A DNA stretch of 64,000 nucleotides from NCBI RefSeq assembly GCF_002156705.1, contig NZ_CP019893.1, forward strand, positions 1,364,001-1,428,000, given 5' to 3'. The position numbers and the translations under genes are program-made. Each line of letters opens with the position of its first letter. Within the stretch, counting starts at the first letter, position 1. This document shows positions 29,113 to 36,891 of this stretch, piece by piece. Source of the stretch: Natrarchaeobaculum aegyptiacum. Its GTDB lineage: Archaea; Halobacteriota; Halobacteria; Halobacteriales; Natrialbaceae. Below the pieces are notes generated by a model that had not been told where the DNA came from, searched no databases, and saw only the letters and a list, made by a program, of their open reading frames with translations.

Positions 29113-29191
29113 GCCTCGGGGTCAAGTGGTTCGAGAATCGAAGATTCTCGTCATCACGAGAGAGCTTTGCTCTCTCGATCGACCCCGAGGC
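29113..29191 (-). ncRNA. predicted cloverleaf RNA at the tnpB 3' end (candidate omega/re-RNA scaffold)
   Basis: On the minus strand an outer 11-bp stem (29113-29123 with 29181-29191, GACCCCGAGGC type) encloses two perfect hairpins. One is 29157-29177 (9-bp arms CGAGAGAGC, three-base loop); the other is 29132-29150 (8-bp arms CGAGAATC, three-base loop). The structure straddles the tnpB stop codon at 29154, exactly where IS200/IS605 elements encode the guide-RNA scaffold and where archaeal sense-overlapping transcripts have been reported. The guide would lie just below 29113, after GATTCAC. Confidence 0.65.
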
Positions 29192-30404
29192 TTCCTGCTT
29201 CCACGACGCGCTTTGCAGACACCTGAGTGGTGTCCGTAGGGAGCGCAGTCTCGACAGGCGTCTCTTCGGGCCATCCCAGCCCTAGTTCAGAAAAGCCGCG
29301 TTGCAGGACGTTCATCGCTGCGTTCGCGTCACGATCGCATTCGAACCCACACGAGGGGCACGAACGGTCTCGCACCCAGATGGGTTTTGCCGTCTCCACA
29401 CCGCACGACGCACATTCCTTTGTCGTTCCCTCGGGTTCGACCTGTACGACGTGCGTGCCGTACAGGTCGCCTTTGTATTCGAGGAGTGTGATGAATTGTC
29501 GCCACGCTGCATCCTGCTTGGTCCGGGCGTTCCCCTCTCCCTGAAGCATCCCAGCTACATCGAGGTCTTCGACGAACACGGCGTCGTGCTCACGGACGAG
29601 CCACGTCGTGATCTTGTGCTGATAGTCGAGTACCTTCCGCCGGATGTGACGCGTGATCTTCGCCACTTCTCGACGTTGCCTCTCGTAGTTGTTCGACCCC
29701 TGCTCTTTGCGAGAGAGTTTGCGTTGCTCACGGCGGAGTCGCTCGTATTCGTCTTCGAGATCGAGCCACTCCACGGTCGTCCCGTCACTCGTGTGGATGT
29801 AGTTCAAGATGCCGAGGTCGATGCCAACGCTATTGCTCGTGTCGAGAGTCTCTACCGCGGGTTTCTCGGGGAGATCGGCATCGTCGACTTCGAGGCTGAA
29901 GGAGACGAACCACTCGTCGGTCGTCTCCTTTTTGATCGTGACTTCTTTGATGGTTGCTTCGTCAGGGATTTCGCGGTGGTAGCGGATGCGGATATCTCCG
30001 ATTTTCGAGAGCCAGAGCGTCGCATGTCGGCCACTCGTGTTTGTGAGTTCGAAGCCAGACTGTGAGTACGTCATGCTCTGGAACTCCCGTGGAGACTTCC
30101 AGTTGAGTTTCCCGACCGTGTTTCCATTTCGTTTCTGTTCGGAGCGTCCATCGAGGTTCTGGTAGAATCTGGTGACGGTTCGTTGCAGCGCCTTCGAATT
30201 AACCTCCGAAAAGATGGGGAACTCGTCTTTCCACCCGGGAAGCCTGTAGTGATGCTTGTACGCGGAGCCAATGTCATCGGCGTCCACGTTTTCGTATTCG
30301 TACAGGGTGTAGTTGTACGCCTGGCGATGAACGTCGATGTGGTAGTCCAGTGCAGCCACTACCTCTTGTGTCGGGTAGGCGGGGTAGCGGTGACTGTATT
30401 CCAT
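29154..30404 (-). CDS. tnpB: TnpB RNA-guided endonuclease (IS200/IS605 family, IS1341 type)
   Basis: 416 residues, full length. The split RuvC nuclease is intact: Asp196 in GIDLG, Glu279 in FVEDL and Asp359 in DRDANAAMN. A zinc finger has Cys331, 334, 349 and 352 (CASCG, CPSCG). The N-terminus (MEYSHRYPAYPTQEVVAALD) is the helix-turn-helix/wedge start. TnpB cuts DNA next to a short target motif, guided by an RNA from the element's right end, which favours retention of the element. No tnpA transposase is adjacent, so this is a solo-tnpB element moved in trans if at all. It lies 297 bases from, and divergent to, the ABC transporter operon. Confidence 0.93.
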   Translation of the reverse strand: MEYSHRYPAYPTQEVVAALDYHIDVHRQAYNYTLYEYENVDADDIGSAYKHHYRLPGWKDEFPIFSEVNSKALQRTVTRFYQNLDGRSEQKRNGNTVGKLNWKSPREFQSMTYSQSGFELTNTSGRHATLWLSKIGDIRIRYHREIPDEATIKEVTIKKETTDEWFVSFSLEVDDADLPEKPAVETLDTSNSVGIDLGILNYIHTSDGTTVEWLDLEDEYERLRREQRKLSRKEQGSNNYERQRREVAKITRHIRRKVLDYQHKITTWLVREHDAVFVEDLDVAGMLQGEGNARTKQDAAWRQFITLLEYKGDLYGTHVVQVEPEGTTKECASCGVETAKPIWVRDRSCPSCGFECDRDANAAMNVLQRGFSELGLGWPEETPVETALPTDTTQVSAKRVVEAGSLGVDRESKALS

Positions 30405-30701: not shown

Positions 30702-32336
30702 ATGCGTACAAATTCACGCCGATCATTCCTTCGATCGGTTGGTGCAACAGGTGCTGTTGGGACGGCCGCTCTCGCAGGCTGTGCCGGTGTAGACACTGGC
30801 GCTGACGAGGATCTCGGGGAGCCAGTTCCGGAGATCCAGTTTGTCTTCCAGACTGCCGGAGCGAGTCCAGACCGGAACGAACTCGGTCATCTCGTCGCGG
30901 ACAACCTCGAGGAGATTGGCTTCGAAGTCGATCGGCAAGAGCGTGAGTTCGATCCGCTCGTTCAGCAGTCCGTCGTCGAACAGGACTTCGACGTCTCGCT
31001 GCTCGGGTGGGGTGGAACACCGGAACGGATCGATCCGCACATCTTCCTGATGGACATGCACCACTCGGACTTCAGCATGGAAGGTGGACGGAACACGCCG
31101 GGCTACAATAACCCCGAGTACGACGAAATCGCCGAAATGCAGGCCCAGGAGGTAGACGAGGACGCTCGACGCGAACTGGTGTTCGAGGCACAGCAGATGC
31201 TGTCGGAAGATCAGCCACGCTGTTACATCGCGAACGAGGGTGGCGACCATCCGTACAACTCCGAGCGTCTCGACAGCGTGAATCCGACGTTGGGCGAAGG
31301 GCTCAACGGGTTCTGGAACTTCTTAGAGCTGGAGCCGGCCGACGGCGTCGACGAGGTGACGTTCGGGTACGGGGCCGACATCATCTCGCTGAACCCGATG
31401 CAGGACCTGGCGACGCCGGACCGCCAGTTCATCCGGCTCATCTACGATCAGCTCTACCGCTTCGGCGAGGACGGCGATCCGGTTCCGTGGCTGGCCGTCG
31501 ACGAACCGGAGATTTCCGACGACGGGACGGCCTTCACCGTCGAAATCCGCGAGGGACACACGTTCCACGACGGCGAAGAAGTGACGATCGACGACGTCGA
31601 GTTCTCGTTCGAACTCTTCGCCGAACACTCCCCGACGTTCCAGACCTACCTCGAGGGAATCGAGGAGATGGAGACCAGCGGCAACGAGATCACCTTCCAC
31701 CTCGACGAACCCGACGCGACGTTCGTGAGTAACGCGCTGGCACAGATCTACATCTTCCCCGAACACATCTGGGCCGGGATCGACGACCCGACCGAACAGG
31801 GAGACGACGAGTACATCGGCAGCGGCCCGTTCGTGTTCGAAGACTGGGAGCGCGAGGTCGAGATGCAGTTGCGCAGGTTCGACGACCACTTCCAGCCGCC
31901 GAACGTCGAGCGGCTCATCCGCGTTCCCGGCGACGCCGGCACCCTGATCGATCAGATCGAGGCACACGAGATCGACATGTTCGGCAACGAGCCGACGCCG
32001 GTCCAGGCCGAACGGATCGCCGACGATCCCGATCTGGGTCTGGCTACCTTCGAAGACATCGGCCACGTGAAGCTCTCGTACAACATGCGTCGCGATCACA
32101 TGGACGACGTCCACCTCCGACGCGCGATCTCCTACTGTGTCCCCAAAGAAACCTTCGTCGAGGACATTCGCGGCGGGATGGGGACGGTAACCCACTCGCC
32201 GATCGCTCAGGCAGTCGAGAACTGGCACAACCCCGACGTGCGCCAATACCACGAGAACCTCGAGGCGGCCGAAGAAGAACTCGAGGCTGGCGGTTACGAG
32301 TGGGGAAGCGACGGCCGGCTCTACTACGGGGAATAA
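30702..32336 (+). CDS. oligopeptide-type ABC transporter substrate-binding lipoprotein, apparently circularly permuted
   Basis: 544 residues. A Tat lipoprotein signal (RRSFLRSVGATGAVG) leads to a lipobox LAGC with Cys27. The mature protein has the SBP_bac_5 fold elements but in swapped order. Residues about 44-212 resemble the usual C-terminal part (ADNLEEIGFEVDRQEREFDP, LLGWGG, NNPEYDEIAEMQ). Residues about 216-544 hold the usual N-terminal part (SLNPMQDLATPDRQFIRLIY, VEIREGHTFHDGEEVTIDDV, LRRAISYCVPKETF) and stop at AGGYEWGSDGRLYYGE, where the C-terminal part normally begins. It is the first gene of the importer operon. Confidence 0.88.
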   Translation: MRTNSRRSFLRSVGATGAVGTAALAGCAGVDTGADEDLGEPVPEIQFVFQTAGASPDRNELGHLVADNLEEIGFEVDRQEREFDPLVQQSVVEQDFDVSLLGWGGTPERIDPHIFLMDMHHSDFSMEGGRNTPGYNNPEYDEIAEMQAQEVDEDARRELVFEAQQMLSEDQPRCYIANEGGDHPYNSERLDSVNPTLGEGLNGFWNFLELEPADGVDEVTFGYGADIISLNPMQDLATPDRQFIRLIYDQLYRFGEDGDPVPWLAVDEPEISDDGTAFTVEIREGHTFHDGEEVTIDDVEFSFELFAEHSPTFQTYLEGIEEMETSGNEITFHLDEPDATFVSNALAQIYIFPEHIWAGIDDPTEQGDDEYIGSGPFVFEDWEREVEMQLRRFDDHFQPPNVERLIRVPGDAGTLIDQIEAHEIDMFGNEPTPVQAERIADDPDLGLATFEDIGHVKLSYNMRRDHMDDVHLRRAISYCVPKETFVEDIRGGMGTVTHSPIAQAVENWHNPDVRQYHENLEAAEEELEAGGYEWGSDGRLYYGE

Positions 32337-32593: not shown

Positions 32594-33574
32594 ATGGGAT
32601 TGAGAGAGTACATCGTCCGACGCATCCTCCAGCTCGTGTTTACGCTGTGGGCGTTCGTCACGCTCCTGTTCGTGTTGTTCAGGATGGTCCCGGGTGATCC
32701 GACGACGCGGTTCGTCATGGAGTATCCCACGCCCGAGGCACGGGAACAACGGATCGAAGAGCTCGGGCTCAACGAGCCGCTGCACGTCCAGTACATCGAA
32801 TACATGAGTCAGCTCATGCGGGGGGAGTTCGGCGACTCGACACACTACCGGGAGCCAGTGAGCGAACTCATCTTTCCGCTGTTCCTCAACACGATCGTGC
32901 TCATGTTCACCGCGTTGATCATCGCCTATACGTTCGGCGTGATCTTCGGCGCGGCTATGGGTTGGTTGCGAGGCAGCCGCTTCGAACGCGGCGGTATCGT
33001 CGCCACGCTCATGGCCCGCTCGTCGCCAGAGTTCTGGATCGGCGTCATCCTAGTCTGGATCTTCGTCTTCCAGCTCGGGGTCCTCCCCCGAAGTGGGATC
33101 GGCGGGTACGGCGACGAGTTGACGATGAACGTCATCGACCGGTACGTCAACGTCGACTTCCTCCGACACCTGATTCTGCCAGCGCTGACGGGAGCGATCT
33201 ACTACATGGCGACGCCCGCCCTCCTGATGCGAAATACCATGCTCGAGGTCCTGAAGGCCGACTTCATCGAGATCAAAAAGGCCGAAGGGCTGCCCGAGCG
33301 AACGGTACTGTACAAACACGCCGCACGCAACTCCGTGTTGCCGCTCGTGACGGTCGTCGCGATCGCAACCGGTGCCGCGATGGGCGGTTCGGTCATCATC
33401 GAGACCGTCTTCAACTGGCCGGGGATCGGCCGTGAGATGGTCGCGTCGGTGACCAGAAACGACTATCCGGTCGCGATGGCGGCCTTCTTCCTCATGGGAA
33501 CCGCCGTGATCGTGATGAACTTCGTCGCCGACCTGGCGTACCTCTATCTCGACCCACGGGTGAAATACGAATGA
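32594..33574 (+). CDS. dppB: peptide-type ABC transporter permease 1 (DppB family)
   Basis: 326 residues, six membrane helices. The N-terminal signature IVRRILQLVFTLWAFVTLLF with FRMVPGDPTT, and the EAA loop DFIEIKKAEGLPERTVLYKH followed by ARNSVLP, are diagnostic for DppB/OppB. It forms the membrane channel with the next gene, which it overlaps by four bases (ATGA). Confidence 0.93.
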   Translation: MGLREYIVRRILQLVFTLWAFVTLLFVLFRMVPGDPTTRFVMEYPTPEAREQRIEELGLNEPLHVQYIEYMSQLMRGEFGDSTHYREPVSELIFPLFLNTIVLMFTALIIAYTFGVIFGAAMGWLRGSRFERGGIVATLMARSSPEFWIGVILVWIFVFQLGVLPRSGIGGYGDELTMNVIDRYVNVDFLRHLILPALTGAIYYMATPALLMRNTMLEVLKADFIEIKKAEGLPERTVLYKHAARNSVLPLVTVVAIATGAAMGGSVIIETVFNWPGIGREMVASVTRNDYPVAMAAFFLMGTAVIVMNFVADLAYLYLDPRVKYE

Positions 33575-34536
33575 GTCTTGAAACCCCTCCCACGGATACC
33601 GACTCGCTGGACCGACGCAAACTTCGCTGGCAGCGCCGCCTCGAGGCGGTCCGCAACTGGCTGAACGTTCTCAAAGCGGACCGAATGGGCCAGATCGGAC
33701 TCACGATTCTGGCGGTGTTTTTCTTCATCGGGGTCTTCGCCCGTCCGATCGAGATTTCGGTTGGGCCCGTCTGGGCGACGGTCCAGCCGTTCTCGCTCGC
33801 ACCCTACGAGCCCGGTGCCCGGGTCGCCGGAACGGGGCTCCAGGGGCCGTCGTGGGACCACCCGCTCGGTACGACACACCTCGGTCGGGACGTCCTCTCC
33901 CAGCTGCTCGTCGCGACTCGAGTGACGCTGATCGTCGGCGTCGTCGCAGCGTTCATGGCCGTCTTCATCGGTGCGAACGTCGGCATCATCAGCGCCTACT
34001 ACGGCGGCTGGGTCGACGACCTCCTGATGCGCATTACCGACGTCGTCTACGGCGTTCCGTTCCTGCCCTTTGCCATCGCACTGGTGTTCATCATCGGTGC
34101 CAGTCTGGTCAACGTCATCTTCGCGATCGTATTGATCCTCTGGCGTGGCACCGCCCGCGTCGTTCGGTCACAGGTACTGAGTCACAAACAACGGCCGTAC
34201 GTCGAGAGCGCCCGAGCGATCGGCGCGAGTGACTTTCGGATCATGTACGTCCAGATCATGCCGAACGTCCTGCCACTGATCTCGCTGTACGCCGCCTTCG
34301 CGGTGGCGTGGGCGGTGATCGCAGAGGCGAGTCTCTCGTTCCTCGGACTCGGCCCACCGGGGATGATCTCCTGGGGCGAGATGATCTACGACGTCCGCAG
34401 CGCCGGTGCCCTCCGCGAGGCGTGGTGGTGGGTGTTCCCACCGGGCATCGCCATCATGCTGTTCGTGATGTCGGTGTTCTTCATCGGCCGCTCGCTCGAG
34501 AAAGTAGTCAACCCAGAACTGCGCCACTCCGAATAA
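33571..34536 (+). CDS. dppC: peptide-type ABC transporter permease 2 (DppC family)
   Basis: 321 residues. An N-terminal cytoplasmic segment and first helix (GQIGLTILAVFFFIGVFARP) are followed by the binding-protein-dependent permease core. HPLGTTHLGRDVLSQLL-type sequence (here DHPLGTTHLGRDVLSQLL) and the EAA loop SARAIGASDFRIMYVQIMPN identify DppC/OppC. It is translationally coupled to the preceding permease. Confidence 0.93.
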   Translation: MSLETPPTDTDSLDRRKLRWQRRLEAVRNWLNVLKADRMGQIGLTILAVFFFIGVFARPIEISVGPVWATVQPFSLAPYEPGARVAGTGLQGPSWDHPLGTTHLGRDVLSQLLVATRVTLIVGVVAAFMAVFIGANVGIISAYYGGWVDDLLMRITDVVYGVPFLPFAIALVFIIGASLVNVIFAIVLILWRGTARVVRSQVLSHKQRPYVESARAIGASDFRIMYVQIMPNVLPLISLYAAFAVAWAVIAEASLSFLGLGPPGMISWGEMIYDVRSAGALREAWWWVFPPGIAIMLFVMSVFFIGRSLEKVVNPELRHSE

Positions 34537-34540
34537 GACA

Positions 34541-35593
34541 ATGACGCTACTCACAATCGACGGATTGCAGATGTACTACCGGAGCGAGGACGGATACGTC
34601 CGTGCCGCCGACGACATCAACCTCGAGCTCGAGCGCGGGCAGACACTCGGACTCGTCGGCGAGAGCGGCTCCGGAAAGACGACCATCGCCCGGTCGATCA
34701 TCCGGCTGTTGCCGGACAACGCCGAGGTCGTCGACGGATCGATCGACTTCGACGGTACCGAGATCACCGACCTGACCGACCGGGAACTGCGCAACCAGAT
34801 CCGATGGCAGGAGGTATCGATGATCCCGCAGAACGCGATGAACGGCTTCGACCCGGTCTACACCGTCGGCCAGCAGATCGTTCAGGTGATCAGACACCAC
34901 GAAGACGGCGTCTCGAAGGCCGACGCGAAAGAGCGCGCCAGAGCGCTGTTCGACGAACTCGGCATCGACCCCGACCGCGTCGACGACTATCCCCACCAGT
35001 TCTCCGGTGGAATGGCCCAGCGAGCGATGATCGCACTGGCGCTGTGTCTCGAGCCACGGCTGATCCTCGCCGACGAGCCGACGACGGCACTGGACGTGGT
35101 GATCCAGGACCGCATCCTCGACACCATCAAGGAGATGCAAGCGGAGTACGACAGCGCGATGATCCTGATCACCCACGATATCTCGGTGGTCAGTGAAACT
35201 TCCGACCGAATCGCCGTCTGTTACGGGGGACGGATCGTCGAACAGGCCGACGCGGCCACGATCATCAAGAATCCCCGCCATCCCTACACGCTCGGACTGC
35301 GCAACGCGTTTCCCGACATCGGGGACTCGAACGACGAACTCATCTCGATCCCAGGTACGCCACCCGAACTCGTCGATCCGGGCGAAGGCTGTCGGTTCGC
35401 CCCCCGGTGTCCGTTCGCCGAAGAAGAGTGCTGGGAGGTCACGCCGGAACCCGAAGAGTACGACGACGGACACATCGTCGAGTGCCACCGCGCCGACGAG
35501 GCCGACGAACTCCGACCGCTCGCCGAACAGCGAGAGACGTGGATGGGCGAGGAGAAACCGGAAACAGCCCCCATTCAGGGAGGTGACGACTGA
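34541..35593 (+). CDS. dppD: peptide-type ABC transporter ATPase (DppD family)
   Basis: 350 residues. Walker A GESGSGKT, signature FSGGMAQRA and Walker B LILADEPTTALD are all present. The C-terminal oligopeptide-transporter tail has four cysteines (GCRFAPRCPFAEEECW, then VECHRADE), a pattern that in some DppD proteins binds an iron-sulfur cluster. It energises import with the following ATPase; its stop overlaps that gene's start by one base. Confidence 0.93.
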   Translation: MTLLTIDGLQMYYRSEDGYVRAADDINLELERGQTLGLVGESGSGKTTIARSIIRLLPDNAEVVDGSIDFDGTEITDLTDRELRNQIRWQEVSMIPQNAMNGFDPVYTVGQQIVQVIRHHEDGVSKADAKERARALFDELGIDPDRVDDYPHQFSGGMAQRAMIALALCLEPRLILADEPTTALDVVIQDRILDTIKEMQAEYDSAMILITHDISVVSETSDRIAVCYGGRIVEQADAATIIKNPRHPYTLGLRNAFPDIGDSNDELISIPGTPPELVDPGEGCRFAPRCPFAEEECWEVTPEPEEYDDGHIVECHRADEADELRPLAEQRETWMGEEKPETAPIQGGDD

Positions 35594-36891
35594 TGTCGCT
35601 TACGTCCGAAACCGACGAGCGCGCAACGCAGGCCGACGACGTGAAACTCCGACTCGAGAACCTCGATAAACACTTCGCCGTCAATCAGGGTATCCTCTCG
35701 CGAATCCTCCGCGGAGAGTCCTCGCAGTACGTCCACGCTGTCGACGACGTCTCCGTCGAAATCGCCGACGGGGAAGCGTTCGGGCTGGCTGGCGAGTCCG
35801 GCTGTGGGAAGACGACCCTTGGAAAGACCGCCATCAAGCTGACCGAGCCCACGAACGGTCGGATCATCTTCGACGGCGAAGACGTCACCGACCTGAGCGG
35901 CGGTGACCTCAAGGCATTCCGACGAGAGGCCCAGGTGATCCACCAGAACCCGTACGACTCGATCAACCCCCGATTCACGGTCTACGAGTGGGTCGAAGAA
36001 CCCCTCATCGTCCACGACATCGGCACGCCCGAAGAACGTGAAGCGCGCGTCCTCGAGACCCTCGAGATGGCCGGACTCGAGCCACCGGAGGCCTACGCCC
36101 ACGAGTACCCGACAGAACTCAGCGGTGGTGAGCGCCAGCGGGTCGGCATCGCCCGCGCGCTGGTACTCGAGCCGTCGTTCCTGCTGGCTGACGAACCCGC
36201 GAGCATGCTCGACGTCTCGATCCGGGCGAGCATCCTCGAGGTCTTCGAACGGCTGCAGGACGAACTCGGCCTGACGGCGCTGTACATCAGCCACGACCTC
36301 TCGCTGTTGAAACACATCTGTGACCGCATCGGGATCATGTACCTCGGCGAGCTCGTCGAGGTCGGCCCCGCAGACGAGATCATCGACAATCCCCAGCACC
36401 CGTACACGCAGGCGCTGGTTTCGTCGGTCCCGCGGGTCGACCCCGACGTCGACCGCGAGCGCATCGAACTCGTTGGCGAGGTTCCCGACGCCGTCGACGT
36501 CCCCAGCGGCTGTCGCTTCCACCCCCGGTGCCCGAAGCTCATCCCACCGGAAGACGTCGACCTCGAGCAAGACGTCTGGCGAGCCGTCGCCAACCTCCGG
36601 CGCGACCTCCTCGAGGACGACCTCGCACTGGCCGACGACGAGACGCCCACCCCCGCAGCGATCCGGGCAGAGTACGGCGTTCCGGACGAACTCTCCGATT
36701 CCCACGTCGACGAGGTGCTCTCGGCGGCCCTCGAGACCTACACACAGAGCGACGAGGCGACGCTCGACCGGCTCAGGGAGGCACTCGAGAGCCCGTGTGA
36801 ACGCGGCTCGATCCCGACGTATCAGGCCACTGGCGTCCAGCGCTCGCAGTGCCTGCTGCACGACCCCGACGGCCCATATCAGGTCGAGTAA
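35593..36891 (+). CDS. dppF: peptide-type ABC transporter ATPase (DppF family)
   Basis: 432 residues, about 100 longer than bacterial DppF. Walker A GESGCGKT, signature LSGGERQRVGIARAL and Walker B LLADEPASMLD are intact. The tail starts GCRFHPRCPKLIPPEDVDLE and continues as a helical acidic extension before two more cysteines (PCERGS, SQCLLHD). As I recall, this extension is usual in haloarchaeal DppF. Last gene of the operon. Confidence 0.93.
   Translation: MSLTSETDERATQADDVKLRLENLDKHFAVNQGILSRILRGESSQYVHAVDDVSVEIADGEAFGLAGESGCGKTTLGKTAIKLTEPTNGRIIFDGEDVTDLSGGDLKAFRREAQVIHQNPYDSINPRFTVYEWVEEPLIVHDIGTPEEREARVLETLEMAGLEPPEAYAHEYPTELSGGERQRVGIARALVLEPSFLLADEPASMLDVSIRASILEVFERLQDELGLTALYISHDLSLLKHICDRIGIMYLGELVEVGPADEIIDNPQHPYTQALVSSVPRVDPDVDRERIELVGEVPDAVDVPSGCRFHPRCPKLIPPEDVDLEQDVWRAVANLRRDLLEDDLALADDETPTPAAIRAEYGVPDELSDSHVDEVLSAALETYTQSDEATLDRLREALESPCERGSIPTYQATGVQRSQCLLHDPDGPYQVE

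Follow-up and report, generated by a model that had tools for sequence, protein, structure and literature searches.

A circularly permuted family-5 solute-binding protein heads a Dpp/Opp-type importer operon in Natrarchaeobaculum aegyptiacum

The window, a 64,000-nucleotide stretch of the Natrarchaeobaculum aegyptiacum genome, encodes a 544-aa solute-binding lipoprotein (SBP) of the SBP_bac_5 family (SBP5, cluster C) at 30702..32336 (+), whose segments run C-N1-N2. Both segments are complete, each is present once, their order is cyclic and the linker between them is short, which defines a circular permutation. Taken together, the evidence favors, with a probability of about 0.88, a naturally permuted family-5 ABC-importer SBP that was probably re-cut in a second-lobe loop, likely via duplication, with several origins across the family. 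The protein is a member of a cross-domain clade of permuted SBP5s rather than a one-protein oddity. The permutation reading of the first-pass annotation is thereby supported, with amendments on the lobe that was cut and on the breadth of the family.

Segment order, junction and predicted fold

The gene, assigned by Pfam, phmmer, segment-order classification and orthologues, opens with a Tat signal and lipobox (RRSFL...LAGC; 30702..30782, +), which reads RRSFLRSVGATGAVGTAALAGC and is also present in the orthologues; from this motif, Cys27 is probably the lipidated residue. Residues 42-208 (30825..31325, +) correspond to the C-terminal segment of canonical SBP5s (DppA about 342-507), as indicated by Pfam, structure match and hhalign, and residues 217-544 (31350..32333, +) to the N-terminal segment (DppA 1-345), as indicated by Pfam and structure match. 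Between them, residues 209-217 (31326..31352, +) form a junction of few residues that links the former chain ends, C-terminus to N-terminus. The gap between segment matches has a median of 5 residues across 86 permuted proteins, and the AlphaFold2 model has a pLDDT of 95-97 across residues 201-220, spanning the junction. The C-terminal end of the chain is the cut loop itself, EAGGYEWGSDGRLYYGE.

In separate Pfam scans of the two halves of the protein, the first aligns to SBP_bac_5 profile positions 290-351 (E 5e-6) and the second to 2-284 (E 1e-54); the intact sequence reaches 211 bits over two stretches against a curated cut-off of 32.4 (PF00496, E 3e-62). The same inversion is seen with phmmer on several solved-structure templates from the PDB. 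In 8efz, query residues 220-538 match chain residues 13-328 and query 58-171 match 350-454, while in AppA (1xoc) query 247-538 match 52-351 and query 24-177 match 339-487. In profile-profile comparison against haloarchaeal SBPs of normal order, a first-segment profile built from 31 relatives falls on the C-terminal columns 388-533 of 551 (E 3e-19), and the second half of the full profile falls on columns 55-400 (E 3e-54). The halves therefore stand in the reversed order that had been proposed, and the HMM check of each half that was suggested with it returns reversed model coordinates. The canonical order N1-N2-C is absent, and on the order C-N1-N2 the protein is classed as a permuted variant of SBP5 and not as a canonical member.

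An AlphaFold2 model built from 33 permuted sequences is well predicted over residues 41-544 (mean pLDDT 90.3, pTM 0.86). Sequential structure aligners match the whole model by its larger segment only, superposing residues 211-544 on AppA 1xoc 18-357 (Z 25.1) and residues 217-542 on DppA 1dpp 1-345 (Z 22.4). For this reason residues 41-218 were folded alone, yielding a moderately confident model (pLDDT 76.7, pTM 0.54) that matches 6ofq 387-549 (Z 10.4), 1xoc 358-520 (Z 9.8) and 1dpp 342-507 (Z 9.7). The DppA ranges 1-345 and 342-507 tile the chain once with an overlap of few residues, which points to a clean permutation rather than a truncation, as first described. Each segment falls on the expected part of DppA/AppA, the alternative outcome of an unrelated domain was not seen, and the complete bilobed SBP5 fold is predicted to be kept despite the permutation.

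The position of the cut requires a correction. That the C-terminal-lobe blocks come first agrees with the match to DppA 342-507, but the cut lies inside the lobe (DppA about 342-345) and not at its start. It falls in the loop that follows the 'AGY' helix, and this loop belongs to the second lobe on what we take to be the lobe boundaries of DppA. With the new termini within it, the second lobe would be split, not moved whole.

Operon and candidate cargo

The SBP gene heads an intact operon, as the first-pass annotation stated. Downstream, all on the + strand, lie a DppB-type permease (32594..33574; PF00528 and PF19300), a DppC-type permease (33571..34536; PF00528), a DppD-type ATPase (34541..35593) and a DppF-type ATPase (35593..36891), each ATPase carrying PF00005 and PF08352 oligo_HPY. 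The SBP stop and the first permease start are separated by 257 bases, and the remaining operon genes almost abut or overlap. Two BPD_transp_1 permeases paired with two ABC ATPases bearing oligo_HPY constitute the Dpp/Opp importer layout. By sequence the operon is thus of Dpp/Opp type, which does not establish the earlier label 'peptide importer'. A TnpB-type gene (OrfB_IS605, Cas12f1-like TNB) lies upstream at 29154-30404 (-) of the window, ~300 bases from the permuted gene and directed away from it.

In DppA, the peptide ends are held by Arg355 and Asp408. The phmmer alignment pairs Glu108 of the permuted SBP with Asp408 of DppA and does not extend over the stretch around Arg355. Around other permuted-SBP operons, creatininase, M20/M28 peptidase or hydantoinase/oxoprolinase genes are repeatedly found adjoining (L132, L133, L136, L081, L082 and L083), and C26 and Rid-family genes are likewise neighbors of relatives. 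Such neighbors suggest small amides or N-substituted amino acids as cargo in those systems only; no creatininase, M20, M28, C26, hydantoinase/oxoprolinase or Rid-type gene is adjacent to the operon described here.

Distribution and number of origins

Of the seven SBP5 proteins encoded in the host genome, five (L001-L005) are permuted and the other two (L009, L010) keep the normal order. The proposed search of haloarchaeal genomes reveals that C-N1-N2 is widespread in other haloarchaea. It also occurs in genomes of the same phylum that we infer to be Archaeoglobi-like (L048-L051), with full operons at L048 and L051. A permuted Archaeoglobi-like SBP at L051:5233-6972 (-) ends in a weak PGF-CTERM match and is probably C-terminally anchored. 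Bacterial carriers comprise Oceanobacillus, Bacillus and Mesobacillus of the Bacillota, Clostridia and SAR324 MAGs, Chloroflexota, with Promineifilum among the named carriers, and Alphaproteobacteria, some on plasmids (Nitratireductor, Microvirga, Ketogulonicigenium and Roseomonas). In each of eight bacterial genomes searched, one full-length permuted match is found among several to many partial, normal-type matches. The search of viral contigs yielded no relatives. On Salinigranum rubrum plasmid NZ_CP026310.1 (43891-45397), a permuted SBP is annotated as two adjacent substrate-binding genes, which a frameshift or a natural split would explain. An L004-type permuted gene of genome G549 is interrupted at L172:2520-2720 by CTGTCTCTTATACACATN, apparently a Nextera adapter remnant in the assembly.

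A second cut point was found in a Bathyarchaeota MAG and in relatives within its phylum (L096, L151-L164), whose SBP5s run N2-C-N1; this type-2 cut lies between the strand ending '..NPNYF' and the next segment, and the phylum also holds normal-order SBP5s. The 171 complete proteins classified comprise 86 C-N1-N2, 71 N1-N2-C and 14 N2-C-N1 members, counts that mirror the discovery route and not natural frequencies. All 171 are cyclic in order, with zero non-cyclic arrangements.

Trees were computed from de-permuted sequences with a quick search and contain long branches. A branch with SH-aLRT 99 separates the main clade, comprising archaea and bacteria, from the rest; the Archaeoglobi-like proteins (99) are placed apart from that clade, the type-2 proteins are supported at 98, and the L004-type clade (100) mixes permuted and normal-order orthologues. 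AU tests on a 44-row set, with groups picked after the first tree was seen, reject a single clade for all C-N1-N2 proteins (lnL 272 lower, p-AU 4.7e-5) and a joint clade of main and Archaeoglobi-like proteins (p 0.002). Monophyly of the permuted L004-type proteins is not rejected (p 0.157), so these are counted as one event, though the tree hints at more. The nearly identical cut loop in main-clade and Archaeoglobi-like proteins is what a single ancient permutation would leave behind if every C-N1-N2 protein descended from it and the normal order was restored repeatedly. This account has to contend with both AU rejections, with many reversions required among normal SBP5s, and with the L004-type cut, which lies one helix earlier, before DPEKAATLLEEGF and equivalents, whereas the main clade keeps that helix C-terminally; we consider it quite improbable. 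Permutation at this loop region seems to have occurred more than once, with another SBP5 lineage, type-2, cut elsewhere.

Domain shuffling, in which the C-terminal SBP5 half of another gene was fused ahead of an SBP5 that had lost its own C-terminal half, draws on the C-part-only tree (149 columns). There the main clade does not come out intact, which makes C-segment chimerism possible in some members; however, the C part is short and diverged, enough alone to blur its tree. Three of the four permuted groups (L004-type, Archaeoglobi-like and type-2) come out alike in trees of the N part and of the C part, which argues against chimerism in these; both halves of L173 are closest to normal-order orthologues of one subfamily (52% and 55% identity), and pairwise identities in the N part correlate with those in the C part (Spearman 0.46). 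Shuffling is accordingly an improbable source of the observed order. The chance of a misassembly or annotation error at the locus is negligible. The adapter near the junction of L172 demonstrates that artefacts do exist, but the gene described here is one open frame on a single contig, two further genomes of the genus carry orthologues (88-89% identity) with the same order in a single open frame, and relatives in named isolates of other phyla share that order; an error is refuted by these independent genomes.

Proposed mechanism and comparison with known systems

In the favored reading, natural circular permutation, a canonical N1-N2-C chain would have been re-cut in a second-lobe loop and its old ends joined to give C-N1-N2. 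The route was probably tandem duplication with in-frame fusion, followed by partial loss from each copy, with the signal peptide of the first copy kept. Tandem SBP5 genes occur at L061 1-3440, where the open frames overlap, and at L055, a possible starting arrangement for such a route; a duplicated intermediate (C-N1-N2-C) is absent from the 171 complete proteins classified. Family and operon suggest that the permuted SBP is exported folded by Tat and then lipid-anchored, that its two lobes close on a small ligand, and that the ligand would be passed to the DppB/C-type permeases, with the DppD/F-type ATPases supplying power.

Owing to the position of the cut, both chain ends and the lipid tether would leave from the second lobe and not from the N-terminal domain. 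The permutation could then be an adaptation of tethered SBPs, in which an anchor on the second lobe alters capture or docking. Lipoboxes are present in haloarchaeal, Bacillota and Chloroflexota members and in two of three Archaeoglobi-like members inspected, the third having a weak PGF-CTERM anchor match, and the same idea was raised for the permuted Treponema pallidum protein TpMglB-2 (PMC4990184). Against this, the lipobox scan finds none in the alphaproteobacterial L131, L132, L135, L136, L088 and L090, which look like soluble periplasmic proteins, so a shift of the tether cannot fully explain the permutation; neutral fixation is just as plausible, and we regard tether adaptation as doubtful. 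A broader, tentative proposal is that the SBP5 fold may have been repeatedly re-cut in both archaea and bacteria, in at least four separate permutations at three cut points, because moved ends and tether change how receptor and transporter meet, with one haloarchaeal subfamily preserving both orders as a natural experiment. Permuted and normal-order orthologues of L004 type are still ~50% identical, making both the event and its effect directly testable.

Natural circular permutation within one fold is usually regarded as a rare and isolated curiosity; SBP5, a large and well-studied family of receptors, has several cases, spread over archaea and bacteria. In annotation, permuted SBP5s carry no label beyond 'ABC transporter substrate-binding protein'. 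Because sequential aligners take one segment at a time, template-based inference of structure or ligand misleads unless the order is corrected. The permuted proteins also mark tolerated cut points usable for sensor engineering.

The protein resembles canonical SBP5 (cluster C) members such as DppA, OppA, AppA and NikA in family profile, in whole fold as predicted here, in partner permeases and ATPases, and in its signal peptide; it differs in running C-N1-N2 instead of N1-N2-C, with both chain ends placed in the second lobe. No description of a permuted SBP5 was found in the open-access literature searched, a scope that leaves subscription journals aside, and the nearest precedent is TpMglB-2, from another SBP class. 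TpMglB-2 (Tp0684) is a permuted type I / cluster B glucose-binding protein with a solved structure and known ligand, for which its authors proposed a 'type Ic' subclass and tied it to tethering (PMC4990184). Fold and profile place the present protein in SBP5 / cluster C and thus outside type Ic. The two proteins differ in SBP class and in the position of the cut, and share the natural circular permutation of a tethered ABC-importer SBP with the bilobed fold intact, as predicted here for the haloarchaeal member.
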